Source: Halichondria panicea (lineage: Eukaryota; Porifera; Demospongiae; Suberitida; Halichondriidae). Taken from it: 64,000 nucleotides of DNA. Position numbers and translations under genes: made by a program. Under the pieces are notes generated by a model. The model did not search any database, was not told where the DNA came from, and saw nothing but the letters and a program-made list of their open reading frames with translations. This document shows positions 1,377-63,363 of this stretch, one piece after another; the stretch's first letter is position 1; each line of letters begins with the position of its first letter. The stretch is from contig NC_087383.1 in NCBI RefSeq assembly GCF_963675165.1, positions 2,882,979 to 2,946,978 of the forward strand, read 5' to 3'.

Positions 1377-2005
1377 ATGGCCACTAAAGAGCAGAACCAA
1401 GGTATAAAGACTGTCATGTTTCCTATAAAGGATAAACCCAATGATTGCTAAAGCATAAAACCCTCATTGGTGATTGCTAACCTTGTGTGCTTGCTATCTA
1501 TTTCAGAGCTCACAATTGACGATCTGAAGACAGAAATGAAACTGACTGATGAGCAGCTCAATACAGCAATACAAGAACCAGATCTACCCGAGTTAGCAGC
1601 ATGTTTCGATAACACTGATGATTATCTTGAAAAGCTGGAGCTGTCAATGGAGCTGCCCTCTATCAACTTCTGAATACAAACAATTCCCTTGAATGTCTTA
1701 ATTTGTCTGGTAACACATTGACTAACTGTCGTCACATTGCTGCTGGACTTGCAGCCAATAAGACTCTGAGAAGATTGGACTTGTAAACTGACTGATCAGA
1801 GTATCGAGGAGCTATCAACTGGACTGATCAACAAGATTGAAACACTGCACATTTATGATGGAACAGAAGATGGAATGAAGACGCTTGCCAGACATCTAAC
1901 TGACACTATTGGTGATACCCGACCACCTAATTAATATTCTGTATCGAGACAGCATTCAGGGACGCTAACAAAGAGAGGAAGAGAAATGGACTGCCTGAGA
2001 TTTAA
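1377..2005 (+). pseudogene. NLR-D: deleted DEATH-NACHT-LRR pseudogene
   Basis: Exon 1 (1377-1401, MATKEQNQ) and the start of the DEATH exon (from 1507) are intact and nearly identical to the other NLRs. At about 1650 the DEATH domain, after YLEKLELS, joins directly to the middle of the LRR region. This deletes about 2.2 kb, including the rest of DEATH, an intron and all of NACHT. The join is out of frame and a stop follows at 1671-1673. LRR remnants continue to about 2005, where GLPEI is followed by TAA, with another stop after the third remnant repeat. Its remaining LRR codons still differ from those of NLR-A, B and C at the exposed positions, for example LNLSGN. No function is expected. Confidence 0.85.
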
Positions 2006-2285
2006 TGTGGTTGCATTCTTACCATGATTTTAATTATTTTTTGATAATCGATTTTATTTTCTGCCATAATTATATCACATTATAATAAATGACAATTTGA
2101 GAAAAGTAGCGAAGTACGTACTATAATAATATATAGTATATTATGTTGGAACATTAGGTCGTTAATAACGTGTCAATAGTACATGCAGATGATATAAATA
2201 ATTCATGCACTGCTGTGAATAGTCAATGAATACATGCAATTTGCTAATGGCAAATCCAATTTAACGCTCTGTCGATTTTTGTTCA

Positions 2286-8672: not shown

Positions 8673-9159
8673 ACAGTGGGGCCATAGGCAGTGCACGTAC
8701 ACAGTGGGGCCATAGGCAGTGCACGTACACAGTGGAGCCATAGGCAGTGCACGTACACAGTGGGGCCATAGGCAGTGCACGTACACAGTGGGACCATAGG
8801 CAGTGCACGTACACAGTGGGACCATAGGCAGTGCACGTACACAGTGGGACCATAGGCAGTGCACGTACACAGTGGGACCATAGGCAGTGCACGTACACAG
8901 TGGGGCCATAGGCAGTGCACGTACATAGTGGGACCATAGGCAGTGCACGTACATAGTGGGACCATAGGCAGTGCACGTACATAGTGGGGTCATAGGCAGT
9001 GCACGTACATAGTGGGACCATAGGCAGTGCACGTACATAGTGGGGGCATAGGCAGTGCACGTACATAGTGGGGCCATAGGCAGTGCATGTACATAGTGGG
9101 GGCATAGGCAGTGCACGTACATAGTGGGGCCATAGGCAGTGCATGTACATAGTGGGACC
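8673..9159. repeat. 28-bp satellite array 1 (about 17 units)
   Basis: Tandem units of 28 bp have the form GCAGTGCAYGTACAYAGTGG followed by GRCCATAG. Variants cluster: the left half carries CACGTACACAG, the right half CAYGTACATAG. All three minus-strand frames stay open because the unit has no stop in any frame and 28 is not a multiple of three. The array is cut at its right end by the element at 9164-9807 and resumes as array 2. Confidence 0.95.
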
Positions 9160-9163
9160 ATAA

Positions 9164-9807: not shown

Positions 9808-10158
9808 ATAAGCAATGCATGTACATAGTGGGACCATAAGCAGTGCATGTACATAGTGGGACCATAGGCAGTGCATGTACATAGTGGGACCATAAGCAGT
9901 GCATGTACATAGTGGGACCATAAGCAGTGCATGTACATAGTGGGGACCATAGGCAGTGCACGTACATAGTGGGACCATAGGCAGTGCATGTACATAGTGG
10001 GACCATAGGCAATGCATGTACATAGTGGGACCATAGGCAGTGCATGTACATAGTGGGACCATAGGCAGTGCATGTACATAGTGGGACCATAAGCAGTGCA
10101 TGTACATAGTGGGGCCATAAGCAGTGCATGTACATAGTGGGGCCATAAGCTCTGTACA
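9808..10158. repeat. 28-bp satellite array 2 (about 12 units)
   Basis: This is the continuation of array 1 beyond the inserted element, with the same orientation and unit. Most units are of the CATGTACATAG type. One unit near 9943 has an extra G. The array ends at the CTCTGTACACACAC flank. Confidence 0.95.
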
Positions 10159-16248: not shown

Positions 16249-19207
16249 ATGGCCACTAAAGAGCAGAACCAAGGTATAAAGACTGTCATGTTTACTACAA
16301 AGGATAAACACAATGATTGCTAAAGCATAAAACCCTCATTGGTGATTGCTAACCTTGTGTGCTTGCTATCTATTTTCAGAGCTCACAATTGACGATCTGA
16401 AGACAGAAATGAAACTGACTGATGAGCAGCTCAATACAGCAATACAGGAACCAGATCTACCCGAGTTAGCAGCATGTTTCGACAATGTTCACAAAGGCTA
16501 TCTTGAAAAACTGGAGCTCTCACCTGGAGAACAAACTGACGTGAGGACTAGAGCATATGTAGATGGCACTCTGGCGGGAATGTTGCTGGCTCTGAAATTC
16601 TGGATACTGACCAACGGACAAGACGCCACCTTCCAAGCTCTGCTACTCATCATACTCTCCCTGCTCAAAGAAGACGTTGCTGTTCGAGTGTGCAAGTACT
16701 TGTCTGACAAATGTGAGTCTGTCATGTGAGAGTGTGGTCATTGTGGTACCATACGTTGTGGGAGTGATTGCAACCAAATAAGGGACTCTTCAACTTAATT
16801 GCTATTGTTACACATACAATTCTGTATTAACTATCACCATGTACCAGGAATAGTACTCACCTATTGTTTTGTTTCCCCAGACTCCACCACCTCGTGTCCC
16901 CCCTCCCGAGAGAGGGTCCTGCTGAACCACAAGCTGTCCTCGTACAGGGACTACCTACAAAGTCGCTACAGAGCACGAGTATCCACATCAGCCACACAAT
17001 GGCCTCCTGTTCCAACAAACAAAGTCTTCAAACTGGCCATGATTCAGAAGGAGAAAATACAGAGAGGAAGAATCGACGATGAATTTGTTAAACTAACAAT
17101 TACGGGGAAAATTGATGATATTTTGCTTCAAAAAACTCAAATTGACTTAATGAATATTTTCTCTGAGATTGGAAATAGACAGAACTTTGTGTTGATTGAA
17201 GGAGCTCCCGGCTCTGGCAAGAGCACCCTTGCTCTACACATCTGTCAGGAGTGGGCAAAGGGGAAACTGTTCCAAGAGTTTGATATTTCAATCCTCGTGA
17301 GACTGAGAGATCCCCTTGTTAAAGAAGCAAAAACAATAGAAGATCTTCTCCCTTGTAGGAATTCAACACTGGCGTGCCAAATAGGGGCAACAATTTCAGG
17401 GACTGATGGCAAAGGTGTACTGTGGGTGCTGGACGGATGGGACGAACTTCCTTCTGACCTCCCTAGAGACTCAATCATTAACAAACTAATTCGACCAGAC
17501 ATGTCACAAAAAGGAGCCCTACACGAATCAGCTGTGATTGTAACATCTCGACCGTCATCTTCGGCTGAGCTCCACCCACTAGTCTCGTCCAGGGTGGAGG
17601 TGTTGGGGTTCACTCCACATCAACTAGAACAGTATTTTACCGAGTGTCTGGAAGGTGACTCACAAGCTGTGCAGACTCTACTGGAGAGAATTCGAGAGAA
17701 CCCAGTGGTAGAAGGTAGCTGCTACCTCCCCCTCAATGCTTCCATTGTCGTTAATTGCTTCCTTTCTGACAACCACTCCCTCCCCACATCCAACCACGGG
17801 ATATTCACATCGGTTGTCCAAAGCTCTCTCAAGAGATACCTCCAGGAGAAGTTGGGGAAGACCACTCCAGTGGGAGACATCACATCCCCAGACTCACTGC
17901 CCTCGGAAATCAGAACACAGACCGTACAAATGTGTCAACTTGCATATCATGGGATTGAAGCCAACAAAGCAACATTTACTGACGGTGATTTGGCTGCTCT
18001 TCGCATTACGAAGGACATTTCAAACGTTGGATTATTACAAACTGTTCCCAGCATCATTAGCGATGGTGATCTGGTTTACTACTGCTTTCTCCATCTGTCT
18101 ATTCAAGAGCTACTAGCAGCAATCCACATCTCTCTCATGTCTCCCAAGCAACAAATTTCTGTATTCCAGAAGCTATTTGGTAGTCCTCGATTCAGTGCAG
18201 TCTTCCAATTTTATGCTGGTATCACCAAACTGAGAACTAGTAGACCAATCCTCAGCTTGCTACCTCGATTCTTGTGTCCAGTTCCAGCCACTGTTTTTGA
18301 TCTGGTCCAAAAGGTTGTCAAAACTGAGAAAGAGAAGTATGGTGAGCCAAAGCCCCTTTTGTTGTCCCTCATCAATTGTTTGTACGAAGCTGAAGACTCG
18401 CGACTGTGTGTGTTTGTGGCTAATCTTCTTAATCACAATCTACATCTTGATTACACTACAATGAATCCTATTGACTGCCTCTCTGTTGGATATTTCGTAT
18501 CAGCTTGTTCCAACACCAGTAATGGATTCACACTTAGCCTCAGCATTTGCTCTATTGATGACCAAGGCTGCAAATTTCTGGCCCGAGGACTCTCCAAGTG
18601 TCCCAACTCTAATAATGATATTCCTACAGCAGGGATACACATTGCCGAGATTATCGAGAACACTAGTTCAATATCTGAATTGAATTTGTCTTTTAATGCC
18701 ATTGGTAACAGTGGACTTTGCACACTCTGTGCGGCCTTGTCCACTAACACATCATTAAAGAGCCTGAACCTGACCAATTGCTCACTAACAATATCAGACG
18801 ACAATGGAGCTGCCCTCTATCAACTTCTGAATACAAACAATTCCCTCGAATATCTTAGTTTGTATGGTAACACAGTGACTAGCTGTCGTCACATTGCTGC
18901 TGGACTTGCAGTTAATAAGACTCTGAGAACATTGTACTTGGATGACTGTGAACTGACTGATCAGAGTATCGAGGAGCTATCAACGGGACTGATCAACAAG
19001 ATTGAAACACTGTACATTTATGCTAATGCCTCAATAACAGAAGATGGAATGAAGACACTTGCCAGACATCTAACCACCCACTGCTCTGAACTGACACTAT
19101 TGTTGATACCCGACCACCTAGAGTCCTGTATCGAGACAGTATTCAGGGACGCTAACAAAGAGAGGAAGAGAAATGGACTACCCGAGATTGGTGTGCATAC
19201 ATTATAA
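16249..19207 (+). CDS. NLR-A: DEATH-NACHT-LRR receptor
   Basis: Three exons give about 894 residues: 16249-16273 (MATKEQNQ), 16380-16712 and 16881-19207. All have GT-AG borders (GTATAA...CAG; GTGAGT...CCCCAG) and matching phases. Residues about 9-105 form a DEATH-fold module (LTIDDLKTEMKLTDEQL...ACFDN...ALLLIILSLLKEDVAV). A linker (RVLLNHKLSSYRDYLQ) leads to the NACHT domain, with P-loop GAPGSGKST near residues 227-235, Walker B VLWVLDGWDEL near 300 and sensor-like VIVTSRPSS. About five LRRs of the NLR type follow from near residue 670. The architecture is that of a cytosolic innate immune receptor that would oligomerise and signal by DEATH-DEATH contacts; the ligand is unknown. It differs from B and C in the NACHT segment after Walker A. 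It lies head to head with EFR3. Confidence 0.9.
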
Positions 19208-21813: not shown

Positions 21814-23628
21814 ACATAAGCAGTGCATGTACATAGTGGGACCATAAGCAGTGCATGTACATAGTGGGACCATAGGCAGTGCATGTACATAGTGGGACCA
21901 TAGGCAGTGCATGTACATAGTGGGACCATAGGCAGTGCATGTACACAGTGGGACCATAGGCAGTGCATGTACATAGTGGGACCATAAGCAGTGCATGTAC
22001 ATAGTGGGACCATAGGCAGTGCATGTACATAGTGGGGCCATAGGCAGTGCATGTACATAGTGCAGTGCATGTACATAGTGGGGCCATAAGCAGTGCATGT
22101 ACATAGTGGGGCCATAAGCAGTGCATGTACATAGTGGGGCCATAAGCAGTGCGTGTACATAGTGGGACCATAGGCAGTGCATGTACATAGTGGGGCCATA
22201 GGCAGTGCATGTACATAGTGGGACCATAGGCAGTGCGTGTACATAGTGGGGCCATAGGCAGTGCGTGTACATAGTGGGACCATAGGCAGTGCGTGTACAT
22301 AGTGGGGCCATAAGCAGTGCATGTACATAGTGGGGCCATAGGCAGTGCATGTACATAGTGGGACCATAGGCAGTGCATGTACATAGTGGGACCATAGGCA
22401 GTGCATGTACACAGTGGGACCATAGGCAGTGCATGTACATAGTGGGACCATAAGCAGTGCATGTACATAGTGGGGCCATAGGCAGTGCATGTACATAGTG
22501 CAGTGCATGTACATAGTGGGGCCATAAGCAGTGCATGTACATAGTGGGGCCATAAGCAGTGCATGTACATAGTGGGGCCATAAGCAGTGCGTGTACATAG
22601 TGGGACCATAGGCAGTGCATGTACATAGTGGGGCCATAGGCAGTGCATGTACATAGTGGGACCATAGGCAGTGCGTGTACATAGTGGGGCCATAGGCAGT
22701 GCGTGTACATAGTGGGACCATAGGCAGTGCGTGTACATAGTGGGGCCATAAGCAGTGCATGTACATAGTGGGGCCATAGGCAGTGCATGTACATAGTGGG
22801 GCCATAAGCAGTGCATGTACATAGTGGGGCCATAAGCAGTGCATGTACATAGTGCAGTGCATGTACATAGTGGGGCCATAGGCAGTGCATGTACATAGTG
22901 GGACCATAGGCAGTGCATGTACATAGTGCAGTGCATGTACATAGTGGGACCATAGGCAGTGCATGTACATAGTGGGACCATAGGCAGTGCATGTACATAG
23001 TGGGACCATAGGCAGTGCGTGTACATAGTGGGACCATAGGCAGTGCATGTACATAGTGGGGCCATAGGCAGTGCATGTACATAGTGGGACCATAGGCAGT
23101 GCGTGTACATAGTGGGGCCATAGGCAGTGCGTGTACATAGTGGGACCATAGGCAGTGCGTGTACATAGTGGGGCCATAAGCAGTGCATGTACATAGTGGG
23201 ACCATAAGCAGTGCATGTACACAGTGGGACCATAGGCAGTGCATGTACATAGTGGGACCATAGGCAGTGCGTGTACATAGTGGGGCCATAGGCAGTGCGT
23301 GTACATAGTGGGGCCATAGGCAGTGCGTGTACATAGTGGGGCCATAGGCAGTGCGTGTACATAGTGGGGCCATAGGCAGTGCGTGTACATAGTGGGGCCA
23401 TAGGCAGTGCATGTACATAATGGGGCCATAGGCAGTGCGTGTACATAGTGGGACCATAGGCAGTGCGTGTACATAGTGGGGCCATAGGCAGTGCGTGTAC
23501 ATAGTGGGGCCATAGGCAGTGCGTGTACATAGTGGGGCCATAGGCAGTGCGTGTACATAGTGGGGCCATAGGCAGTGCGTGTACATAGTGGGACCATAGG
23601 CAGTGCATGTACATAGTGGGACCATAGG
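21814..23628. repeat. 28-bp satellite array 3 (about 65 units)
   Basis: This is the longest array, in the same orientation as the others. Shortened 18-bp units (ACATAGTGCAGTGCATG junction) occur near 22061, 22499, 22855 and 22929. The first two are exactly 438 bp apart (15 full units plus one short unit) and the units after them match in order, so there is a higher-order repeat. The right half has many GCGTGTACATAG units. The right edge abuts GGATATCCCCCTTCCCCCC, which also precedes EFR3 exon 10 at 11.03 kb. Confidence 0.95.
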
Positions 23629-26197: not shown

Positions 26198-29100
26198 CTG
26201 TTTCAAGTACTCTTCCTTCTCCCGTTACTTTGTAGCACTCGAATATGTCCACCCCGTCCACTGCAGGCACACTGCTCTGCTTTAACTCCTTACAGCGATC
26301 CAGTGCCTTCTTGAGCTCTTCCTCCATCACAAGTCTCTCTTGAACAGCAGACTGGGTAATAGATTGCATGGTGGTCATGTACACACACAGGTATACAGAT
26401 ACAACCATCACAGCATCGTGGTAGTGGTACAGTAGTTATATAATTGCAGGTACATGTATTAATGAAAGCACCGCGGGTGCTGATGCCTCGTAGGAAGCGG
26501 GATGCTCATGAACACTACAATGAAAGTTATAAAAAAGGTAAACCGTTTTGTGAGCAAACACTGCTGTAGGATTACATTGTAATAGAGAGGAAATGATCGA
26601 TTCATTATCTTTATTTATTATCCTCGAGACAAAACCGCAAAATTAGTCATTAATATTCGAGGTAGGTTGATTTTAAGCCGCAGCTATTTTCTGAAATGCA
26701 AACTACCGCGCTCTTCTGGCCAAGTTGCACTGTCCCAAGGGTGGCCGGATTAACGAGAGTCTACTGTACATGTATTAATTATACAGTATTCACCGAGTGT
26801 ATACATGTACATGCTAAACTCACATCTGCCTTGCTGTTGGCCAGTTCCAATTCTCTCACCAGCTCAGCCATGACACCTGGGTCCATGATTTGAGACCTCT
26901 CGAGCAGCTTCTCCTCCAACTCCCGTCATCGTCTAGACCTCGAATGGTCTCACTCTTCTCCTTAACCTGACAAGGGAACATCAATAAGTTGCTGCCAGGT
27001 GGAGAATACTCGACATACAATAGTGATGTGCATGTACACTCAACTACTGAAAATCTGGCAATGAAATTTAACGGTATTCTCCCACTTTGAAATAAAGGTC
27101 AGCTTAAAGTTGGACTGTAGTTAGCAAATAGTAGATCGATTTTGATTGAATATTCTAACCACTGCACATGTGTATCTCTCACCTCTGTGGGTGGTATAGG
27201 AACGAGGGAGGCCCTCTGATACTGCCTAGAGGACTGGACTTCTTCTCACTGCCAATCTAGGAGGTATGAAAACATAATATGCATTTGGTAAAGATCTGCT
27301 CCCAAACAACATTGCAATTGATCCACATTTACAGGTAAAGGGTCATTAAAGTAAAATATGAAATTTGAGCACAAACATTCTTCCTCTCACCTCCTGCTCA
27401 TTCAGGAACTTCATGAACCTGGTAGGAGTGAAGTGCACTTTGAAGGACTCGTCACATGATCTTGGAGCAAAAGATACGGACTTGGTTGAGGATTTGAGTG
27501 GGGCTAAAGTGAGAGAGGAGGTTGTGGGGGGAGGGGCCTCAGACCAGGGCTGGTGGGACGCAGTGTCACGTGAGAGAAGACTCGGACACATGGTCCTCCG
27601 TCTGGACAGCTGCTGTGAGGAGAATGAGAATTGTAAGGCACTGGAATTGAACTGTGCACAAGCACGAAATACATGTACTATTTTACTCGTACCACATAAC
27701 TAACTAAAAATGCTCACCAATAAAACACCACACACCACTTGGTGTACAACATTTTAACGAATCTAAAAGTATACAAATGAACTTCTGCTCCTCTAGACAA
27801 CCTGCCCAACCCTCCACATACACACTGGCTGGATCATGCATAAAGAAAATGGCATCTATTTTCACAGCATTTGACCATCAAACGTATCAGAGAATAATCT
27901 CACGCCCATATTGCTGATTTGCTTGAAATGCCCACCACCATCTTAGCAATGTACCAGCAAGGGGCTTTTGTTGTGAGCATCAATGGTAGGCCATGGCATT
28001 CAGTTGCTATTGATGAGTCACATGAAATGCAGGTACTCTCTGATAAGAAGATTTTGTGCAATCAGATCTTAATTAGAAATGGGAGGCTCACTATCAAAGC
28101 CTATAAGGTGTTAGGTATTCTGAAAATAATTTTCTTCTACCAACTAGATCAAAACTATAAAAGAAACAACTTTACTTTTCCCTATAGTGAGATCTCAGCT
28201 CTCTCAACTCTGGCGACCAATACTGCTCAAAGACATTTATTCTTAAAGTGATTGAGCTCACCTTTGGTAGCGCTGACTTATCACAGCTGTTGGTCCAATT
28301 CTCCAGAACTCTGAGCTTCCCCTCGAGGTGCAACTGCAAGTGACAGAAGAGAAAATAGCTCCAATAATATTATACAATAATTAGTAGTATAGACACTGAA
28401 AGAGCAGATTACCAGGGACAAAATTATTGCAGTGCTTATAATTATAGCTGCTCAAAGTGGTCATAAAGCTTCAACAGAACAACCAACCTGTATATTAAAA
28501 TAGATGCATGTACCCTGGGAGCAATGCAGACGTCAATCAGTCAAGTATTTATTAACAGCTGTAGGCACACACTTGCCCAACCCACTCACCAGAGAGGACA
28601 CCCTGATAGTGCCGTCACTGTGTTCCTCATCTCTAACCCTGCTTTCAATGGTCAGCTTGTAAATCGAGGTATGGGAAAAACGCTCCAATGTAAACACTGA
28701 AAGAGTAGTACTTCAGATACAGACATGCAGGTTGGTTGTCCTATATTGCAGTGCTTGTACTTATAGCTAATACAAGGGTGTTCAGTCATGCAAAGTAGAC
28801 TACGTTACCATAACAACCAATCGTGATCTATTAATCTAAACATCTTCATACATACAAAATTCAGTCCATAATAAAATAGAGAGAGTATCGAACGTATAGC
28901 GTTACCTTGCATCAGATGTATTCGGAGTGTAACATTACACCCTGTCTGAACAACTTGTGGCATAAAATGTTTCTACCTCGAGGTAAGTAGCGGCTTCGGG
29001 TACTCTGATTGTTTGGTTAAAAAGCAGGAAGTTACGTCACTTTCCGAATACATTTGACGCAAGGTAATGCTACGTTGGATACTCCCTCTCTTTTATTATG

Positions 29101-29733
29101 GACTCTTGCTATTAGCGGCCTCTCAAAACTGGTAAGAAACTTAAGCAACTGTAATCACATGACGTACGTACATGTACCAACACTATTTTATGAAGGAGAG
29201 AGTATAATTATACAAAGCAGTACATTCAGCGTGGGATTAATATAAGGACTGTACATTTCCATGCAGTGCATACTGTACAATGTAACTATAGTAACTCACA
29301 CGGTTCACTCTGATACCTTAATTTGATATGATCTTCATCAAAAAAGCAACGGGAAGTTTTACTTGATTGGCTACTGTATCAGCTTGTCCCAAAACTGCTC
29401 ACCCGTGGCACCTGTTGCACTTACATGCTCTGACCCAGCCAGGTCAACCAGGCTCTGAACACAGAGAAGGAGGTAAAATCATCATAATAACAATAACTTA
29501 TATGTACATTTACACATACATAGTCTGTACGTGTAGATCAAATTAAAGCAAAATAGTCGACCTAGTGTGTTCACAGCTGTAGGCACACACTTGCCCAACC
29601 CCACTCACCAGAGAGGACACCCTGATAGTAGTGCCATCACTGAGTTCCTCATCTCTAACCTTGCTTTCAATGGTCAGTTTGAATATTGTGTGTGATCTGG
29701 AGTTGTGCTCGGTATATCCAAATGTCCGGTTCT
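26198..29733 (-). pseudogene. Kinesin-like motor and coiled-coil exons, copy A
   Basis: Kinesins are microtubule ATPases. The exon 29733-29609 encodes the switch I region (NSRSHTIFKLTIES, then GTTIRVSSL). The exon 29454-29403 encodes switch II (SLVDLAGSEHVSATGATG). The motifs resemble kinesin-7 (CENP-E type) most, which is a moderate inference. A second partial switch I exon lies near 28670-28591. Downstream come 28333-28262 (LEGKLRVLENWTNSCDK), 27612-27391 (Ser/Pro-rich, ends TRFMKFLNEQE), 27256-27183, 26966-26824 (coiled coil) and about 26375-26198 (coiled coil). No P-loop exon and no NxNRSL or RDSKLT segment was found. Lesions: TGA at 27246-27248 and a 7-bp deletion near 26924. It lies head to head with NLR-B. 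Confidence 0.65.
27849..28251 (+). pseudogene. Fragment of a repeated family with an AIDESHE motif
   Basis: The segment FTAFDHQTYQRIIS, a +1 frameshift near 27910, then IADLLEMPTT...GAFVVSINGRPWHSVAIDES and HEM recalls an uncharacterised, highly repeated protein family of sponge and cnidarian genomes with a conserved D-E-x-H-E stretch. It lies in a kinesin-like intron on the opposite strand and is followed by unrelated sequence. The function is unknown. A duplicate lies at 50553-50870. The family link is recalled, not searched. Confidence 0.4.
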
Positions 29734-30291
29734 CTGAGCAGAAGAGATTATACACATTACCAGCACATCAGGTGCACAGGCAGCATGCATGTACATGTAC
29801 ACACAAGGCTAAGGCTGAGAGGTCACACTAGGGCAGACCAACAGTGGCTGTAATAAAGAGGTGACATGCTAACACAGGTTGCATGAAACCAACCCTATGG
29901 AGAGACTGGGCCATTAACCTGGCTACAGGGTGATCACATTAGACAGACAGGTTCACAAAGGTGCACAAGTGATAGTGACTTACTCTCCCTGATCTCAATG
30001 AGACTAGTAAATATCTTGGGGGAGGGAAATCGACTCCTCAGACAACCCAACCAACTTATGAGTTAGCCTAGCTTGCACTAATACCTATTGATTTATTAGT
30101 CATAAAAGTGCCAAAGCTGTGCTGCCTAGCAGCAGCCATTGTGAACTTTGACCGCTTTGGAGATACATAATTATGGCAGGAAATGCAACTTCTGTTTCCT
30201 ATAATTATTGGACCAAAGCTAATTCTCCAGAGGTGCACACTTAATACACGGCAATTGGAGAGTGCCAAAACTCAACTCTGCAGTTCTGGTA

Positions 30292-30605
30292 CTGTAAGAC
30301 CTCTAATTAAGGTGACCCTCCAAATATGCGACACTCTCGAGCTTAGGTAATTTTCTGACTTCTACGACAGCTACGTTGACAATTATGTTTTAATGTCGCG
30401 TCCTAAATGAGGTAAATATAGCTAGCCACACCCTAGCATCGATTTTGGAAAACACGTTCTAGAAATTGAGGCAAGTATAGACTGAGTAGAGCTACCTATA
30501 ATTAGATGTGACATCAGGTTTTTAACATAATGTTCAACCTCCAAAAGAAGCGACATCTGGCTTAAAAAGTGTCACTTTAATTAAAGCTAGGTACATGTAT
30601 TACGG
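30292..30605. mobile_element. MITE with CTGTAAGACCTCTAATTAAG end
   Basis: The left end CTGTAAGACCTCTAATTAAG pairs with CACTTTAATTAAAG and TACGG at the right, with TA on both sides. About 14 bp (CTAGGTACATGTAT) interrupt the right repeat in this copy. The cleaner copy is at 52959-53262. Confidence 0.65.
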
Positions 30606-30869
30606 TAATCACATTTCTTACTTGAATACGTCGGGTTCATTACTGACAGGACAGCATTCTCAGCCTCATACTGTGCAAATTAAAGAACAGAAAACATGAT
30701 CCACGACCTTACAAGGTAACTTAAACCAACAGATTAACCAGACAATATTATTGATGAACCAGACAATAATCTATGGCTGATCAATTGACTCACAATCTTT
30801 CCATTCGGAGAATGCGGTAATACTTTAGCAATGGAGCCAGGTTTCATCTCGTGAAAATCAAATGTCTTT

Positions 30870-30971
30870 GGTGGGTGTGGTATTAAATGCAAAAAGTGGG
30901 TGTATCTCAGTCTTAGATATCTGAGATACACCCACTTTTTTTGCAAGTCATGCAAAAACAACAACACACCC
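30870..30971. repeat. Near-perfect hairpin upstream of NLR-B
   Basis: GCAAAAAGTGGGTGTATCTC pairs with GAGATACACCCACTTTTT and TTGC around a 10-bp loop (30911-30920). The pairing extends outward, weakly, to TGGGTGTGG and CACACCCA. It ends about 50 bp before the NLR-B start codon. NLR-C has only the right arm intact (about 53591-53643); NLR-A and NLR-D lack it. It may be a tiny hairpin element or a promoter element. Confidence 0.75.
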
Positions 30972-31020
30972 AATATATTTCTGAGAGAGCTAGCTGCAAG
31001 GCACAGATTTATTTGCTGGA

Positions 31021-33978
31021 ATGGCCACTAAAGAGCAGAACCAAGGTATAAAGACTGTCATGTTTCATAAAGGACAAACCCAATGATTGCTAAAGCATAA
31101 AATCCTCATTGGTGATTGCTAACCTTGTGTGCTTGCTTATCTATTTCAGAGCTCACAATTGACGATCTGAAGACAGAATTGAAACTGACTGATGAGCAGC
31201 TCAATACAGCAATAAAGGAACCAGATCTACCCGAGTTAGCAGCATGTTTTGATAACACTGATGATTATCTTGAAAAGCTGGAGCTGTCACCTGGACAGAA
31301 AACTGACGTCAGCGAAGTGAAAGCTAAAACACGTCTAAACCGCACTCAAGCCGGAATGAAACTTGCCCTAGAATACTGGCAGAGCAAGAACCAACTACAA
31401 GCCACCTTCCAAGCTCTGCTACTCATCTTACTCTCCCTGCTCAAAGGAGACGTTGCTGTTCAAGTGTGCAAGTACTTGTCTGACAAATGTGAGTCTGTCA
31501 TTTTTGAGAGTGTGGTCATTGTGGTACCATACGTTGTGGGAGTGATTGCAACTAAATAAGGGGCTCTTTAACTTAATTGATATTATTACACATATTCTGT
31601 ATTAAGATCACCAGGAATGGTACTCACCTATTGTTTTTCCCCCAGACTCCACCACCTCGTGTCCTCCCTCCCGACAGAGGGTCCTGCTGAACCACAAGCT
31701 GTCCTCATACAGGGACTACCTACAAAGTCGCTACAGAGAACCAGACTCCACATCAGTCACACAATGGCCTCCCGTCTCAACAAAAACAATTTTCAAACTG
31801 GCCATGATTCAGAAGGAGAAAATACAGAGAGGCAGAATTGACGATGAATTTGTTAGACTATCAATCACAGGAAAAATTGACGATATTTTACTTCAAAAAA
31901 CTCCACTTGACTTGATAAACATTTTCTCTGAGATTGGAGATAGACGAAACTTTGTGCTGATTGAAGGAGCTCCCGGCTCTGGCAAGAGCACCCTTGCTCT
32001 ACACATCTGTCAGGAGTGGGCAAAGGGGAAACTGTTCCAAGAATTCGATATTGCAATCCTTGTCAGACTGAGAGATCCCCTCGTTAGAGAAGCCATTACA
32101 ATTTCTGACTTACTTCCCTGCACAAGCAAAGCGATGGCTAATGAAACAGAGACTGCAATTATGTCATTGTACGGCAAAGGTGTACTGTGGGTGCTAGACG
32201 GATGGGACGAACTTCCTTCTGACCTCCCTAGAGACTCAATCATCAACAAACTAATTCGACCAGGCACGTCACAAGAACGTCCGCTACACAAATCCACCAT
32301 GATTATAACATCTCGACCATCATCTTCGGCTGAGCTCCACCCACTAGTCTCGTCCAGGGTGGAGGTGTTGGGGTTCACTCCACATCAACTAGAACAGTAT
32401 TTCACCGAGTGTCTGAAAGGTGACTCACAAGCTGTGCAGACTCTACTGGAGAGAATTCGAGAGAACCCAGTGGTAGAAGGTAGCTGCTACCTCCCCCTCA
32501 ATGCTTCCATTGTCGTTAATTGCTTCCTTTCTGATAACCACTCACTCCCCACATCCAACCACGGGATATTCACATCACTTGTCCAAAGCTCTCTCAAGAG
32601 ATACCTCCAGGAGAAGTTGGGGAAAACCACTCCAGTGGGAGACATCACATCCCCAGACTCACTGCCCTTGGAAATCAGAACGCAGACCGTACAAATGTGT
32701 CAACTTGCATATCATGGGATCGAAAAAAGCAAAGCGACATTTACTGACAGTGATTTGGACACTTTTCGCATTACGAAGGAGATTTCAAACGTTGGATTAT
32801 TGCAAACTGTTCCCAGTATCGTTAGCGACGGTCATCTGGTTTACTACTGCTTTCTCCACCTGTCTATTCAAGAGCTACTAGCAGCAATCCACATCTCTCT
32901 CATGTCTCCCAAGCAACAAATTTCTGTATTCCAGAAGCTGTTTGGTAATCATCGATTCAGTGCAGTCTTCCAGTTTTATGCTGGTATCACCAAACTGAGA
33001 ACTAATCGACCAATCCTCAGCTTGCTACCTCGATTCTTGTGTCCAGTTCCAGCCACTGTTTTTGATCTGGTCAGAAAGATTGTCAAAACTGAGAAACAGA
33101 AGAAGTTTGGTGAGCCGAAGCCCCTTTTGTTGTCCCTCATCAATTGTTTGTACGAAGCTGAAGACTCGCGACTGTGTGTGTTTGTGGCTAATCTTCTTAA
33201 TCACAATCTAGATCTTGATAACACTACAATGAATCCTATTGACTGCCTCTCTGTTGGATATTTCGCATCAGTTTGCTCCAACACCAGTAATGGATTCACA
33301 CTTAGCCTCAACAATTGCTCTATTGGTGACCAAGGCTGCACATTTCTGGCCCGAGGACTTTCCAAGTGTCCCAACTCTAATAATGATATTCCTACAGAAG
33401 GGATACACATCGCTGAGATTATCGAGAACACTAGTTCAATATCTAAATTGGTTTTGTCTAATAATGCCATTGGTAACAGTGGACTTTGCACACTCTGTGA
33501 GGCCTTGTCCACTAATACATCATTAAAGATCCTGGACCTGGACTCTTGCTCACTAACAATATCAGACGACAATGGAGCTGCCCTCTATCAACTTCTAAAT
33601 ACAAACAATTCCCTCGAATATCTTAATTTGTCATTTAACACAGTGACTAGCTGTCGTCACATTGCTGCTGGACTTGCAGTCAATAAGACTCTGAGAACAT
33701 TGAACTTGGATTACTGTGAACTGACTGATCAGAGTATCGAGGAGCTATCAACTGGACTGATCAACAAGATTGAAACACTGAACATTTGGGGTAATGCCTC
33801 AATAACAGAAGATGGAATGAAGACGCTTGCCAGACATCTAACCACCCACTGCTCTGAACTGACAGGATTGTCCATACCCATCTACCTAATATCCTGTATC
33901 GAGACAGTATTCAGGGACACTAACAAAGAGAGGAAGAGAAATGGACTACCCGAGATATCGATTGATATTGTGTGGTAA
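31021..33978 (+). CDS. NLR-B: DEATH-NACHT-LRR receptor
   Basis: Exons are 31021-31045, 31150-31488 and 31646-33978, giving about 898 residues with GT-AG borders in phase. The N-terminal half of DEATH is as in NLR-A, but from residue 60 or so it diverges sharply (SPGQKTDVSEVKAKTRLNRT against SPGEQTDVRTRAYVDG) and then returns to near identity. NACHT has GAPGSGKST and VLWVLDGWDEL; the stretch after Walker A (REAITISDLLPCTSKAM) matches NLR-C, not NLR-A. LRR exposed positions are its own: LVLSNN, LDLDSC, LNLSFN, LNLDYC, LNIWGN. The tail SIDIVW is unique. Role and location are as expected for the family: cytosolic sensing and DEATH-mediated signalling. The 5' flank is of the kinesin-block type, the 3' flank as in NLR-A. 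Confidence 0.9.
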
Positions 33979-43510: not shown

Positions 43511-44927
43511 ACAGTGCACGTACATAGTGGGACCATAAGCAGTGCGTGTACATAGTGGGACCATAAGCAGTGCGTCTACATAGTGGGACCATAGGCAGTG
43601 CATGTACATAGTGGGACCATAGGCAGTGCGTGTACATAGTGAGACCATAAGCAGTGCGTGTACATAGTGGGACCATAGGCAGTGCGTGTACATAGTGGGA
43701 CCATAGGCAGTGCGTGTACATAGTGGGACCATAGGCAGTGTGTGTACATAGTGGGACCATAGGCAGTGCGTGTACATAGTGGGACCATAGGCAGTGCGTG
43801 TACATAGTGGGACCATAGGCAGTGCGTGTACATAGTGAGACCATAGGCAGCGCGTGTACACAGTGGGACCATAGGCAGCGCATGTACATAGTGGGACCAT
43901 AGGCAGCGCGTGTACATAGTGGGGCCATAGGCAGTGCATGTACATAGTGGGACCATAAGCAGTGCATGTACATAGTGGGACCATAAGCAGTGCATGTACA
44001 TAGTGGGACCATTGTGCATGTACATAGTGGGACCATAGGCAGTGCATGTACATAGTGGGACCATAGGCAGTGCATGTACATAGTGGGACCATAGGCAGCG
44101 CGTGTACATAGTGGGGCCATAGGCAGTGCATGTACATAGTGGGACCATAAGCAGTGCATGTACATAGTGGGACCATAGGCAGTGCATGTACATAGTGGGA
44201 CCATTGTGCATGTACATAGTGGGACCATAGGCAGTGCATGTACATAGTGGGACCATAGGCAGTGCATGTACATAGTGGGACCATAGGCAGTGCATGTACA
44301 TAGTGGGACCATAGGCAGTGCATGTACATAGTGGGACCATAGGCAGTGCATGTACATAGTGGGACCATAGGCAGTGCATGTACATAGTGGGACCATAGGC
44401 AGTGCATGTACATAGTGGGACCATAGGCAGTGCATGTACATAGTGGGACCATAGGCAGTGCATGTACATAGTGGGACAATAGGCAGTGCATGTACATAGT
44501 GGGACCATAGGCAGTGCATGTACATAGTGGGGCCATAGGCAGTGCATGTACATAGTGGGACCATAGGCAGTGCATGTACATAGTGGGACCATAGGCAGTG
44601 CATGTACATAGTGGGACCATAGGCAGTGCATGTACATAGTGGGACCATAGGCAGTGCATGTACATAGTGGGACAATAGGCAGTGCATGTACATAGTGGGA
44701 CCATAGGCAGTGCATGTACATAGTGGGGCCATAGGCAGTGCATGTACATAGTGGGACCATAGGCAGTGCATGTACATAGTGGGGCCATAGGCAGTGCATG
44801 TACATAGTGGGGACCATAGGCAGTGCGTGTACATAGTGGGACCATAGGCAGTGCATGTACATAGTGGGACCATAGGCAGTGCGTGTACATAGTGGGACCA
44901 TAGGCAGTGCATGTACATAGTGGGACC
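43511..44927. repeat. 28-bp satellite array 4 (about 50 units)
   Basis: This array is at the same place in the second block as array 1 but about three times longer. Short units with a GGGACCATTGTGCATG junction lie near 44011 and 44203, and GGGACAATAG variants near 44474 and 44671, both about 190-200 bp apart, indicating a higher-order repeat. GCGTGTAC-type units cluster in the first third. Confidence 0.95.
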
Positions 44928-49829: not shown

Positions 49830-50552
49830 TAGTAGATCTATTTTGATTAAAGGACACTAAACACTGCACATGTGTATCTCTCACCTCTGTGGGTGGTATA
49901 GGAACGAGGGAGGCCCTCTGATACTGTCTAGACTGGACTTCTTCCCACTGCCAATCTAGGAGGTATGAAAACATAAATTATTATGCATTTGGTAAAGATC
50001 TGCTCCCAAATAACATTGCAATTGATCCACATTGACAGGTAAAGGGTAATTAAAGTAAAATCTGATATTTGAGCACAAACATTCCTCCTCTCACCTCCTG
50101 CTCATTCAGAAACTTCATGAACCTGGTAGGAGTGAAGTACACTTTGAAGGACTCGTCACATGATCTTGGAGCAAAAGATACGGACTTGGTTGAGGATTTG
50201 AGTGGGACTAAAGTGAGAGAGGAGGTTGTGGGGGGAGGGGCCTCAGACCAGGGCTGGTGGGACGCAGTGTCACGTGAGAGAAGACTCGGACACATGGTCC
50301 TCCGTCTGGACAGCTGCTGTGAGGAGAATGAGAATTGTAAGGCACTGGAATTGAACTGTGCACAAGCACGAAATACATGCACTATTTTATTCGCACCACA
50401 TAACTAACTAAAAATGCTCACCAATAAAACACCACACACCACTTGGTGTACAACATTTTAACGAATCTAAACGCATACAAATGAACGTCTGCTTCTCTAG
50501 ACAACCTGCCCAACCCTCCACATACACACTGGCTGGATCATGCATAAAGAAA

Positions 50553-50870
50553 ATGGCATCTATTTTCACAGCGTTTGACCATCAAACGTATCAGAGAGAA
50601 TAATCTCACGCCCATATTGCTGATTTGCTTGAAATGCCCACCACCATCATAGCAATGTACCAGCAAGGGGCTTTTGTTGTGAGCATCAATGGTAGGCCAT
50701 GGCATTCAGTTGCTATTGATGAGTCACATGAAATGCAGGTACTTTCTGATAAGAACATTTTGTGCAATCAGATCTTAATTAGAAATGAGAGGCTCACTAT
50801 CAAAGCGTTAGGTATTCTGAAAATAATTTTCTTCTACCAACTAGATCAAAACTATAAAGGAAACAATTAA
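50553..50870 (+). pseudogene. AIDESHE-motif fragment, second copy
   Basis: This is the duplicate of 27849-28251 with the same +1 shift, an extra GA that creates an early TAA in the first part, and a short deletion near the end. It was carried along by the block duplication. Confidence 0.4.
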
Positions 50871-52958
50871 TTTTTACTTTTCCCTATAGTGATCGAGATC
50901 TCAGTTCTCTCAACTCTGGCAATCAATACGGCTCAAAGACATTCTTAAAGTGATTGAGCTCACCTTTGGTAGCGCTGACTTATCACAGCTGTTGGTCCAA
51001 TTCTCCAGAACTCTGAGCTTCCCCTCGAGGTGCAACTGCAAGTGACAGAAGAGAAAATAGCTCCAATAATAATTAGTAGTATAGACACTGAAAGAGCAGA
51101 TTACCAGGGACATAATTATTGCAGTGCTTATAATTATAGCTGCTCAAAGTGGTCATAAAGCTTCAACAGAACAACCAACCTGTATATTAAAATAGATGCA
51201 TGTACCCTGGGAGCAATGCAGACGTCAATCAGTCAAGAATTTATTCACAGCTGTAGGCACACACTTGCCCAACCCACTAACCAGAGAGGACACCCTGATA
51301 GTGCCATCACTGAGTTCCTCATCTCTAACCCTGCTTTCAATGGTCAGCTTGTAAATCGAGGTATGGGAAAAACGTTCCAATGTAAACACTGAAAGAGTAG
51401 TACTTCAGAAACAGACATGCAGGTTGGTTGTCCTATATTGCAGTGCTTGTACTTATAGCTAATACAAGGGTGTTCAGTCCTGCAAAGTAGACTACCTTAC
51501 CATAACAACCAATCGTGATCCATTAATCTAAACATCTTCATACATACAAAATTCAGTCCATAATAGAGTATCGAGTGTATATCGTTACCTTCAGATGTAT
51601 TTAGAGTGTAACATTACACCTTGTCTGAACAACTTGTGGCATAAAATGTTTCTGCCTCGAGGTAAGTAGCGGCTTCGGGTACTCTGATTGTTTGGTTAAA
51701 AAGCAGGAAGTTACGTCACTTTCTGAATACATTTGACGCAAGGTATAATGCTACGTTGGATACTCCCTCTTTTATTATGGACTCTTGCTATTAGCGGCCT
51801 CTCAAAACTGGTAAGAAACTTAAGCAACTGTAATCACATGACGTACGTACATGTACCGACACCATTTATGAAGGAGAGAGTATAATTATACAAAGCAGTA
51901 CATTCAGCGTGGGGTTAATATAACTGCACATTTCCATGCAGTGCATACTGTACAATGTAACTATAGTAACTCACATGGTTCACTCTGATAACTTAATTTC
52001 ATATGATCTTCATCAAAAAAGCAACGGGAAGTTTTACTTGATTGGCTACTGTATCAGCTTGTCCCAAAACTGCTCACCCGTGGCACCTGTTGCACTTACA
52101 CGCTCTGGCCCAGCCAGGCTCTGAACACAGAGAAGGAGGTAAAATCATCATAATAACAATAACTTATATGTACATTTACACATACATAGTCTGTACGTGT
52201 AGATCAAATTAAAGCAAAATAGTCGACCTAGTGTATGTTCACAGCTGTAGGCACACACTTGCCCAACCCACTCACCAGAGAGGACACCCTGATAGTAGTG
52301 CCATCACTGAGTTCCTCATCTCTAACCCTGCTTTCAATGGTCAGTTTGGATATTGTGTGTGATTTGGAGTTGTGATCGGCAGATCCAAATGTCCGGTTCT
52401 CTGAGAAGAAGAGATTATACACATTACCAGCACATCAGGTGCACAGGCAGCATGCGAGTACACACAAGGCTAAGGCTGAGAGGTCACACTAGGGCAGACC
52501 AACAGTGGCTGTAATAAAGAGGTGACATGCTAACACAGGTTGCATGAAACCAACCCTATGGAGACTGGGCCATTAACCTGGCTACAGGGTGATCACATTA
52601 GACAGACAGGCTCACAAAGGTGCACAAGTGATAGTGACTTACTCTCCCCGATCTCAATGAGACTAGTAAATATCTTTGGGAGGGAAATCGGCTCCTTAGA
52701 CAACCCAACCAACTTATGAGTTAGCCTAGCTTGCACTAATTTAAAGCCCTATTGATTTATTAGTCAAAAAAGTGCAACAAAAGCTGTGCTGCCTAGCAGC
52801 AGCCATTGTGAACTTTTACCGCTTTGGAGATACATAATTATGGCAGGAAATGCAACTTCTGTTTCCTATAATTATTGGACCAAAGCTAATTCTCCAGAGG
52901 TGCACACTTAATACACGGCAATTGGAGAGTGCCAAAACTCAACTCTGCAGTTCTGGTA

Positions 52959-53262
52959 CTGTAAGACCTCTAATTAAGGTGACCCTCCAAATATGCGACA
53001 CTCTCGAGCTTAGGTAATTTTCTGACTTCTACGACAGCTACATTGACAATTATGTTTTAATGTCGCGTCCTAAATGAGGTAAATATAGCCACACCCTAGC
53101 ATCGGTTTTGGAAAACACGTTCTAGAAATTGAGGCAAGTATAGACTGAGTAGAGTTATCCATAATCAGATACGACATCAGGTTTTTATCAACCTCCAAAA
53201 GAAGCGACATCTGGCTTCGTAATTATTTAAAAAAAGTGTTGCTTTAATTAAAGGTCTTACGG
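52959..53262. mobile_element. MITE with CTGTAAGACCTCTAATTAAG end, clean copy
   Basis: The left end pairs with CTTTAATTAAAGGTCTTACG at the right, with TA on both sides. It matches 30292-30605 but has an uninterrupted right repeat, so the 14-bp interruption in copy A is secondary. Confidence 0.75.
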
Positions 53263-53723
53263 TATTAAATCATATTTCTTACTTGAAAACTTGAATACGT
53301 CAGGTTCATTACTGACAGGGCAGCATTCTCAGCCTCAAACTGTGCAAATTAAAGAACAGAAAACATGATCCACGACCTTACAACATAACTTAAACCTGTA
53401 GATTTAATAACCAGACAATATTATTGATGAACAAGACAATAATCTATGGCTAATCAATTGACTCACCCTCCTTCCATTCGGAGAATGCTGTAATACTTTA
53501 GCAATGCAATGGAGCTAAAAGCTAGCTAGCCAGGTTTCATCATAGATAAACTATGGTTTCACTCAAATGTCTTTGGTGGGTGTGGTAAATTCAAAAAGTG
53601 ATCATTCTTAGATATATCTGAGATACACCCACTTTTTTTGCAAGTCATGCAAAAACAACAACACACCCAATATATTTCAGAGAGATCTAGAGCTAGCTGC
53701 AAGGCACAGATTTATTTGCTGGA

Positions 53724-56717
53724 ATGGCCACTAAAGAGCAGAACCAAGGTATAAAGACTGCCATGTTTCCTATAAAGGATAAACCCAATGATTGCTAAAG
53801 CATAAAACCCTCATTGGTGATTGCTAACCTTGTGTGCTTGCTATCTATTTTCAGAGCTCACAATTGACGATCTGAAGACAGAAATGAAACTGACTGATGA
53901 GCAGCTCAATACAGCAATAAAGGAACCAGATCTACCCGAGTTAGCAGCATGTTTCGACAATGTTCACAACGGCTATCTTGAAAAACTGGGGCTCTTACCT
54001 GGAGAACAAACTGACGTGAGGACTAGAGCATTTGTAGAAGGCACTGTGGCAGGAATGTTGCTGGCTTTGAAATGTTGGATACTGATCAACAGACTAAACG
54101 CCACTTTCCGAGCTCTGCTACTCATCATACTCTCCCTGCTCAAAGAAGACGTTGCTGTTCGAGTGTGCAAGTACTTGTCTGACAAATGTGAGTCTGTCAT
54201 GTGAGAGTGTGGTTAGTGTGGTCATTGTGATACCATACGTTGTGGGAGTGATTGCAACCAAATAAGGGACTCTTCAACTTAATTGCTATTGTTACACATA
54301 CAATTCTCTATTAACTATCACCAGGAATGGTACTCACCTATTGTTTTGTTTCCCCAGACTCCACCACCTCGTGTCCTCCCTCCCGAGAGAGGGTCCTGCT
54401 GAACCACAAGCTGTCCTCGTACAGGGACTACCTACAAAGTCGCTACAAAGAACCAGACTCCACATCAGTCACACAATGGCCTCCCGTCTCAACAAAAACA
54501 ATTTTCAAACTGGCCATGATTCAGAAGGAGAAAATACAGAGAGGCAGAATTGACGATGAATTTTTTAGACTATCAATCACAGGAAAAATCGACGATATTT
54601 TACTTCAAAAAACTCCACTTGACTTGATAAACATTTTCTCTGAGATTGGAGATAGACGAAACTTTGTGCTGATTGAAGGAGCTCCCGGCTCTGGCAAGAG
54701 CACCCTTGCTCTACACATCTGTCAGGAGTGGGCAAAGGGGAAACTGTTCCAAGAGTTCGATATTGCAATCCTTGTCAGACTGAGAGATCCCCTCATTAGA
54801 GAAGCCATTACAATTTCTGACTTACTTCCCTGCACAAACAAAGCGATGGCTAATGAAACAGAGACTGCAATTATGTCATTGTACGGCAAAGGTGTACTGT
54901 GGGTACTAGACGGATGGGACGAACTTTCTTCTGACCTCCCTAGAGACTCAATCATCAACAAACTAATTCGACCAGGCACGTCACAAGAACGTCCGCTACA
55001 CAAATCCACCATGATTATAACATCTCGACCATCATCTTCGGCTGAGCTCCACCCACTAGTTTCGTCCAGGGTGGAGGTGTTGGGGTTCACTCCTCATGAA
55101 TTAGAACAGTATTTTACCGAGTGTCTGGAAGGTGACTCACAAGCTGTGCAGACTCTACTGGAGAGAATTCGAGAGAACCCAGTGGTAGAAGGTAGCTGCT
55201 ACCTCCCCCTCAATGCTTCCATTGTCGTTAATTGCTTCTTGTCTGATAACCACTCACTCCCAACATCCAACCACGGGATATTCATATCAGTTGTCCAGAG
55301 CTCTCTCAAGAGATACCTCAAGGAGAAGTTGAGGAAGACCATTCCAGTGGGAAACATCACATCCCCAGACTCACTGCCCTCGGAAATCAGAACACAGACC
55401 GTACAAATGTGTCAACTTGCATATCATGGGATTGAAGCCAACAAAGCGACATTTACTGACAATGATTTGACCACTCTTCGCATTCCGAAGGAGATTTCAA
55501 ACGTTGGACTATTACAAACTGTTCCCAGTATCATTAGCGATGGTCGTCTGGTTTACTACTGCTTTCTCCACCTGTCTATTCAAGAGCTACTAGCAGCAAT
55601 CCACATCTCTCTCATGTCTCCCAAGCAACAAATTTCTGTATTCCAGAAGCTGTTTGGGAATCCTCGATTCAGTGCAGTATTCCAGTTTTATGCTGGTATC
55701 ACCAAACTAAGAACTAGTAGACCAATCCTCAGCTTGCTACCTCGATTCTTGTGTCCAGTTCCAGCCACTGTTTTTGATCTGGTCAGAAAGGTTGTCAAAA
55801 CTGAGAAAGAGAAAGGGTATGGTAAGCAGCCCCTTTTGTTGTCCCTCATCAATTGTTTGTACGAAGCTGAAGACTCGCGACTGTGTGTGTTTGTGGCTAA
55901 TCTTCTTAATCACAATCTAGATCTTATTTGCACTACAATGAATCCTATTGACTGCCTCTCTGTTGGATATTTTGCATCTGTTTGTTCCAATAGCAGTAAT
56001 GGATTCACACTTAGCCTCGGAAATTGCTCTATTGGTGACCAAGGCTGCAAATTTCTGGCCCGAGGACTCTCCAAGTGTCCCAACTCTAATAATGATATTC
56101 CTACAGATGAGATACACATTGCTGAGATTATCGAGAACACTAGTTCAATATCTGAATTGGATTTGTTTAATAATGCCATTGGTAACAGTGGACTTGGCAC
56201 ACTCTGTGAGGCCTTGTCAACTAACCTATCATTAAAGACACTGAACCTGACCAATTGCTCACTAACAATATCAGACGACAATGGAGCTGCCCTCTATCAA
56301 CTTCTGGATACAAACAATTCCCTCGAACATCTTGATTTGTCTAAGAACACAGTGACTAGCTGTCGTCACATTGCTGCTGGACTTGCAGTCAATAAGACTC
56401 TGAGAACATTGTCCTTGTATTCCTGTGAACTGACTGATCAGAGTATCGAGGAGCTATCAACTGGACTGATCAACAAGATTGAAACACTGCACATTAGGGG
56501 TAATGACTCAATAACAGAAGATGGAATGAAGACGCTTGCCAGACATCTAACCACCCACTGCTCTGAACTGACATGGTTGTACGTACCCTATCACCTAAGA
56601 TCCTGTATCGAGACAGTATTCAGGGACGCTAACAAAGAGAGGAAGAGAAATGGACTACCCGAGATTAATTGTATAGTGAATTTCACCATAAGTGGCCATA
56701 ATTTGCATTGCGTGTAG
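53724..56717 (+). CDS. NLR-C: DEATH-NACHT-LRR receptor
   Basis: Exons are 53724-53748, 53855-54187 and 54358-56717, giving about 905 residues with GT-AG borders in phase. DEATH resembles NLR-A (PGEQTDVRTRAFVEGT), while the NACHT segment after Walker A resembles NLR-B (REAITISDLLPCTNKAM), so the gene is a mosaic of the two. GAPGSGKST and VLWVLDGWDEL are intact. LRR exposed positions are again distinct: LDLFNN, LDLSKN, LSLYSC, LHIRGN, LYVPYH. The C-terminus (INCIVNFTISGHNLHCV) is unlike A and B, because the 3' flank differs after GLPEI. It lies head to head with kinesin copy B. It is predicted to be a cytosolic innate immune sensor. Confidence 0.9.
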
Positions 56718-57470
56718 TAAACACATTTTTGTGGTAAAGTTAGTGTCAATCATCAGCTTTTGCAGAGCTCTATTTAATGGTTTTTTCGAAATTTCATTTG
56801 AGTAAGTATTTCTGGAGATATAGAGTAGCCCACCAAAAAAGGCAAAAATGTGTGGGCAATTATGACGCAAATGACGTCATCGCCATGGCAATGTATTTTT
56901 TCTTTTTAGATGTTTTTCACTAGCTCTGATTTAATAGCTAGAGCATAGATACTGTACACTCCGTGGATGTGAAACACTTCCGCCCACTACCAAAAGTCCT
57001 GAAACACTCATTGCAACGGATGACACGGACAGAGTATCCGAGATTTCGTATTAGTATACGGAATCTACTGCACAGATACAGTAAAACTGCGCATGTAGGA
57101 CCAGAAAGCCAGAAATCGGAAAATGCGGAAGTGAAAGGTAAATGAGTGGGCGTAGCAGGGCAATGCATTCCAAGGTTAACCCTTGATTTTGCACTGAGAT
57201 ATGCTCTTGCCTGATCACTCTACTAGTCTATGTAAGTAAGTAGAAAGCTGGCCAGCCTAGTTTTAAATAGACTCTCCATTGTCTGCAGTATAGACTTGAT
57301 ATAATAGCTAGCTACTTGCACATGTCTGCAGTAGACTCTAGCTAGCTACATGCACAATGAATTAATTAGGTCTGTACACTGAGCTAGATTTAGTATGATT
57401 ATCATTTTTAATTCAGCCAGTCACCTAACTCCTACTTATACTTCCCAATTTATTGTCCAGAGGTTATTTG
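56718..57470. other. No gene recognised
   Basis: This is the 3' flank of NLR-C, not shared with NLR-A or NLR-B. It has short AT-rich and GC-mixed stretches; no exon, RNA gene or clear terminal repeat was seen. Confidence 0.4.
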
Positions 57471-57479
57471 GCTCTATAC

Positions 57480-62935: not shown

Positions 62936-63363
62936 ACAATCTACAAGCTTAACTATAATAATAGCGATTATCCTCTACTTGCAATATAGTTTATGTTGTA
63001 ACTATATATATGCCTGTATATTTTTTATCCAGTGAGTTTTCTTCACTCTCTCTCATAACTGTCTTTCAATCGCAGCATCATCACTGCCTACTTCATCGTA
63101 ACTGCTTGTCTATATACCTATAAATTTATTGTATATATAGGACTGGTGTAGACTATACGTATATATACACTGCCAGGACTTGACTATAATGAGGATTTTT
63201 TGTGTATACTGTGTTGGATCCTAGTATAGAATCTAGTCTGCACCTATCAAATTAATGTAAAGATCAAGACAATACACAGTATACTATACATCTATTAAGC
63301 AAAACCTATAGTAATTATACTGCTGACAACAGACTATATATAGATAGTCATGCATGCAACAAA
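62936..63363. other. About 430-bp insert in the right foldback arm
   Basis: In the left arm the matching bases run without a break at about 60690 (GGTGTGTACCTGGTCTCTAG). In the right arm they are separated: TCTAGAGAC ends at about 62935 and CAGGTACACACC begins at about 63364. The insert is AT-rich with TATATA runs. No clean terminal repeats or target duplication were identified. Confidence 0.6.

Follow-up and report, generated by a model that had tools for sequence, protein, structure and literature searches.

Whether the members of expanded invertebrate NLR sets are specific recognizers or redundant duplicates is the broader question to which this family speaks. LRR polymorphism in invertebrate NLRs has been cited in a review as a hint of specificity (PMC7308585). 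When NLR expansion was scaled to assembly span in a 2026 survey, Halichondria panicea ranked first of the sponges covered; the terms "selection", "hypervariab" and "gene conversion" are absent from the main text of that survey, and its abstract names species-specific selective pressures (PMC12909245). Individual-specific receptor expression was described for H. panicea immune genes in an article whose text lacks "selection" and "polymorphi" (PMC8242945). No codon-level test of sponge NLR LRRs was found in the literature searched, a search with most subscription papers outside its scope and Yuen 2014 as a possible exception. In a tandem array of this sponge, near-identical NLR genes were predicted to differ at the exposed x positions of the LxLxxN motif, through diversifying selection for ligand recognition or through a process that targets changes to these codons. 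Such a family holds its own control, with near-identical genes and with silent sites as a clock. In this study, the codons of the family were compared copy by copy.

NLR genes in the window and the family alignment

The window is the whole 64,000-nucleotide stretch analyzed, C7:2882979-2946978 of the 131-Mb Halichondria panicea assembly. NLR-A, NLR-B and NLR-C lie on its + strand and share one layout: a short exon, an N-terminal exon (~113 aa) and a large exon with NACHT and seven LRRs, the LRRs being assigned by motif. The 5' exons of NLR-A (16249..16711) match annotated NLR proteins of H. panicea at their N-termini. They comprise a short exon 1, which starts at 16249 (MA[AT]KEQNQ), and an N-terminal exon at 16379-16711 (~113 aa). 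The 5' exons of NLR-B (31021..31487; exon 1 start 31021, N-terminal exon 31149-31487) include an N-terminal exon of a type unlike that in NLR-A and NLR-C. Those of NLR-C occupy 53724..54186 (exon 1 start 53724, N-terminal exon 53854-54186). A canonical tripartite NLR would carry a CARD, DEATH, PYD or BIR domain at its N-terminus. No Pfam match to the N-terminal exon was obtained for NLR-A, B or C or, up to E 0.1, in the five annotated relatives scanned, and Pfam filters can miss a diverged domain. The NACHT-LRR exons are located at 16877..19207 in NLR-A (ORF 16799-19207; PF05729, E 3.4e-19), 31642..33978 in NLR-B (ATG ORF 31804-33978) and 54354..56717 in NLR-C (ORF 54327-56717). PF05729 (NACHT) scored 69.7, 75.5 and 75.3 bits in NLR-A, B and C against a cut-off of 26.7, and PF13516 (LRR_6) was above its cut-off in all three. 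The three genes are therefore NLRs with C-terminal LRRs under the definition used for animals, NACHT plus LRR (PMC12909245).

The concave codons were fixed beforehand from the motif LxxLxLxx[NC] as positions 3, 5, 7 and 8 of the seven LRRs, 28 codons in all. The LRR region aligns to ribonuclease inhibitor and NLRP chains, and the concave face was assigned by the motif, by this alignment and by a plant study that placed the same motif positions there (PMC8226289). From first to last, the concave codons span 18530..19114 in NLR-A, 33298..33882 in NLR-B and 56007..56591 in NLR-C (all + strand). The variable stretch had been predicted at 18530..19140; in NLR-A, the concave codons indeed begin at 18530, and their final codon ends at 19114. 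All the LxLxxN motifs quoted in the original prediction are present in NLR-A, B and C. The motif LNLSGN, attributed to a further gene called NLR-D, is present as well. NLR-D (1377..2008, + strand) was rejected as a fourth working receptor. It is a wrecked remnant with a broken frame, in which exon 1 and the first part of the N-terminal exon are joined at ~1646 to the final portion of an LRR.

A search with NLR-A identified at least 58 NACHT-LRR family members, 57 on C7 (1.80-4.19 Mb) and the remaining one on C1; the count is a minimum, as only 58 of the 341 candidates were scored. Among the loci retrieved by the NACHT search are more divergent members (L045-L047, L049). The codon alignment holds 47 of the 58 members (32 with the whole exon and 15 with the LRR part only). 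The 11 members with a longer LRR (L039-L044 and five others) were left out, and the distant L045-L049 were not used. Two near-duplicate pairs were found over 5.3 kb, in which L009 and L020 differ from their partners by 1 and 2 bases. These two were removed to give 45 copies, and were retained in the comparison of pairs with zero silent differences and in protein matching. An in-frame stop interrupts one of the 47 aligned copies, L035. Codon 745, at which Pro is invariant, was omitted from the pair comparison, simulations, association, entropy and matching analyses and third-base clock, which makes the concave averages slightly higher. It was kept in pN/pS, column counts, the three-gene comparison and the adenine test.

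Variation at concave codons and exchange between copies

The LRR framework is near-identical from copy to copy, in its residues as well as in its silent sites. Across the 45 copies, pN was 0.370 and pS 0.123 at concave codons (NG86; raw pN/pS 3.0), against 0.033 and 0.051 at the other LRR codons, an ~11-fold excess of replacement diversity over the remaining LRR. At least four residues were found in 25/28 concave columns versus 14/196 other LRR columns (Fisher p = 4e-20, 45 copies). Entropy exceeded 1.5 bits, the threshold in use for plant highly variable NLRs (hvNLRs), in 20 of the 27 concave columns and in 3 of the 197 others, among paralogues and with the concave face assigned by motif. Concave positions 603, 663 and 745 vary little, and the strongly variable codons outside the concave set include 585, 718 and 749. 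The 28-residue concave string was distinct in every one of the 45 copies, and LRR5 alone had 41 distinct strings. The predicted concentration of changes at the x positions, copy by copy, is thus borne out. Over the 197 codons of the framework, four pairs showed zero silent differences. The near-duplicates L019/L020 make up one of them; in the remaining three, formed by L030, L032 and L050, the concave codons differ at 12, 17 and 19 of 27 positions.

The three genes of the window display the same distribution. Among NLR-A, B and C, 23/28 concave codons differ, every one with at least one residue change, and 15 of these 23 include a pair with a two- or three-base difference; multi-base changes in several codons, and changes that nearly always replace the residue, had been predicted. 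At the other LRR codons, 23/196 differ, 10 of them silently.

The 5' part of the exon, codons 1-260 with NACHT, had a pN of 0.068 and a pS of 0.196 (30 copies). Within it, codons 151-175 of NLR-A (window 17327-17401, NACHT) had a silent diversity of 0.58 and a replacement diversity of 0.25, perhaps two old haplotypes exchanged among copies.

Mutual information between variable columns was raised within an LRR (mean z 1.65, 38% over 2) and close to zero between LRRs (mean z 0.10-0.38). L036 and L037 have identical concave residues in LRR1-3 and differ at 9 of the remaining 15. Judged from these sequence patterns, conversion or crossing-over may act at about the scale of a repeat. The window segments 27129-33956 and 49830-56665 (6.8 kb, including NLR-B and NLR-C) are 92.5% identical. 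The N-terminal exon types of NLR-B and NLR-C differ, with 98% versus 72% identity to P0017, as if the exon had been swapped between paralogues.

The 69 proteins P0001-P0069 were matched against the 47 copies. Thirty-three agreed at all 27 concave residues (18 of them from the reference contig), one agreed at 26, and 35 differed at 10 or more. No protein in the set fell between the 26/27 match and 10 differences, a gap that could stem from whole receptors being present in one haplotype and missing from another. Of the matched proteins encoded on other contigs, 16/16 showed 100% identity across the aligned length (5 over the LRR part only). They therefore probably derive from the same individual and are unusable as alleles.

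Silent change and the source of the variation

A mutator would ignore the reading frame; hence, the silent sites in the same codons serve as an internal clock. The third-base clock was taken as C versus T in NNY codons, which is always silent. Its value was 0.022 at concave codons, 0.021 in the framework and 0.026 at concave codons with a different residue. There is no clear rise of silent change in the concave codons of the C7 family. Fourfold LRR framework sites gave 0.049, and the 150 bases 5' of the exon differed by 0.044 (30 copies). The silent clock therefore looks neutral, and the LRR silent sites are not unusually quiet. The 3' flanks yielded no usable clock, with 306/1641 columns kept in a poor alignment. 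Codon difference given the same residue was 0.050 at concave and 0.035 at framework codons (ratio interval 0.32-3.34). Because these direct silent measures show no rise, the higher raw NG86 pS of concave codons was ascribed to path counting in multi-change codons.

The expected values were obtained by simulation with a separate coalescent tree per column and a uniform mutation rate set by the fourfold framework value. Replacement changes at concave codons would be accepted ~20 times as readily as silent ones, an omega obtained by a simple coalescent simulation that treats the columns as independent, rather than by a maximum-likelihood site model. At omega 20, the simulated base heterozygosities were.421/.444/.187 versus.405/.415/.174 observed, and the silent value was.015 versus.017. 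Mutation or time was also raised, with omega lowered to hold residue diversity. The mean clocks were then 0.10, 0.17 and 0.24 at x5, x10 and x20, and 0/120 runs at each setting had a different-residue clock no higher than the observed 0.026, compared with 3/120 at x3 and 17/120 at x2. A threefold rise of mutation or time in the C7 family is thus unlikely, and a twofold rise is possible.

The concave positions also stand out in other NLR families. P0076-P0120 are 45 more distant proteins with 61-66% identity (43 from ENA and 2 from NCBI contigs; one or several species, H. panicea possible). Their concave positions are the most variable (mean entropy 2.70 vs 0.88), with entropy above 1.5 bits in 27/27 concave columns versus 42/197 others. 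In the same genome, an NLR family on C13 was assembled from 11 copies (L007 and L066-L075; 58 places scored). Here too, the variation falls on the concave residues (entropy 1.81 vs 0.44), with a raw pN/pS of 0.97 at concave codons. The C13 third-base clock was 0.307 at concave codons versus 0.137 elsewhere, about twice as high; this value was reached by 3/5000 random column sets and by 0/80 simulations at each of ten settings. Codons adjoining the concave ones had a somewhat raised clock of 0.211. Selection alone therefore does not explain the C13 family, whose pattern is compatible with LRR pieces that are older or were imported, or with a mutator. The silent-site case for selection holds for the C7 family only.

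Several other sources of the variation were weighed. Exposed surface residues generally tolerate change, and under relaxed constraint such residues might drift freely; however, at omega 1 the simulated residue diversity had a mean of 0.10 and a maximum of 0.186 in 120 runs, against 0.649 observed, so that drift is refuted for C7 under the simulation and is highly improbable as an explanation. A frame-blind germline or somatic mutator that targets the concave codons would make the diversity directly and would leave two- and three-base changes beside unchanged neighbors, as are seen. The raised raw pS and the C13 clock also point that way. The flat third-base clock of C7, matched by no run from x5 upward, argues against it, as does the same-residue codon difference, which is 0.223 in simulations at x20 with omega 1; the x5 range of 0.048-0.150 just includes the observed value and is still compatible. 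We regard such a mutator as very unlikely. The codon-targeting process offered in the original prediction is accordingly unneeded in C7, where a strong frame-blind mutator would raise silent change several-fold and no such rise is seen. A milder form, in which sponge NLR arrays, in addition to ordinary selection, steer changes towards recognition codons through a modest local increase in mutation (up to ~3-fold in C7) or by LRR conversion from diverged donors, more strongly in C13, is quite unlikely. If it were true, focused change and LRR-by-LRR shuffling would give an early-branching animal a self-renewing, germline-encoded recognition repertoire.

The variable columns are often free at bases 1 and 2 with base 3 fixed; codon 690, for example, is NNC in 44/45 copies. 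Many are NNY, as expected from an AAY template, and the fixed third base first resembled template-directed mutagenesis of adenines like that of a diversity-generating retroelement. The simulations showed that selection on a young family produces the same. Changes were not confined to template adenines: 37 of the 56 variable base columns (minor frequency of at least 10%) have a non-A consensus and 7 lack any A, 11/185 consensus-A framework columns vary that much, and columns 741, 749, 711 and 685 are mostly NNA. The chance that this mechanism operates here is close to nil. Old receptor lineages could also be held by balancing selection, with gene conversion homogenizing the surroundings of the variable codons. 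The higher silent diversity of codons 1-260 relative to the LRR framework, the restriction of association to single LRRs and the extra silent change in C13 codons next to concave ones are all consistent with this. In C7, however, the third bases of variable codons look no older than the framework, and the clock is 0.008 one codon away from a concave codon and 0.000 two codons away. A longer history also acts like a higher mutation rate, which fails from x5 upward. We consider old lineages quite unlikely.

With high probability, the C7 genes are a young, homogenized tandem family with repeat-sized exchange, in which the predicted binding face of the LRRs has varied under very strong diversifying selection. 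Diversifying selection had been predicted, and in C7 the ~11-fold excess of concave replacement with no rise in the direct silent measures agrees with it. A dN/dS near 1, or equal divergence at synonymous and buried sites, had been named as the outcome that would speak against it; neither was found in the 45-copy alignment. The changes would be ordinary point mutations under very strong and repeated selection for ligand recognition. The association within LRRs suggests that gene conversion or unequal crossing-over shuffles pieces about as long as a repeat among the copies and maintains a uniform framework. The receptors may form a putative germline-encoded recognition repertoire, in which the LRRs would bind different microbial or non-self ligands.

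Comparison with known systems and tandem repeats in the window

In lamprey VLRs, hypervariable concave LRR residues lie on a conserved scaffold, and the receptors are assembled somatically. The sponge NLRs share the hypervariable concave face; unlike VLRs, their genes are whole and open in the genome. An expanded NLR set has reportedly been found in the sponge Amphimedon queenslandica, and the H. panicea set is similar in this respect.

The kind of pattern described here is known from plants, and the sponge family offers an unusually clean example that carries its own clock. Plant hvNLRs show the same variability of the concave LRR face, and 66% of the high-entropy residues in RPP13 are under positive selection (PMC8226289). 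They also resemble the sponge genes in NLR architecture and in recombination or conversion between close paralogues (PMC8226289). However, plant hvNLRs are NB-ARC alleles compared across ecotypes, whereas the sponge genes are tandem paralogues of one genome with NACHT and ribonuclease inhibitor-type LRRs. Zebrafish NLR-B30.2 genes likewise form a large clustered NACHT family with gene conversion and positive selection; their B30.2 domain is hypervariable and their LRRs are "not particularly variable" (PMC4852459). In the sponge, by contrast, the predicted concave positions of the LRRs are hypervariable, and the open frame stops after the LRRs. Fungal NLRs carry internally conserved WD, ANK and TPR repeats with positive selection on binding faces; a near-identical repeat scaffold, selected binding-face codons and suggested concerted evolution are shared with the sponge family (PMC4986451). 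Fungal NLRs are without LRRs and their repeats are alike within and between genes, whereas in the sponge the corresponding repeats of different paralogues are alike.

About 25 residues per receptor are marked as the target of intense selection, which provides a shortlist for swaps in binding tests. The silent-site test is simple and could be applied to any array of hypervariable paralogues to tell targeted mutation apart from diversifying selection.

Arrays of a 28-base minisatellite, with up to 51 copies, lie between the NLR genes (window 8673-9162, 9808-10150, 21815-23628 and 43512-44927). The long minus-strand open frames in these arrays probably derive from the repeat, and the arrays could favor unequal crossing-over in the NLR array. 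A second tandem array, with a period of ~156 bases and multiples thereof, occupies 57454-60319 and 63363-64000, and the array end is inverted at the end of the window.
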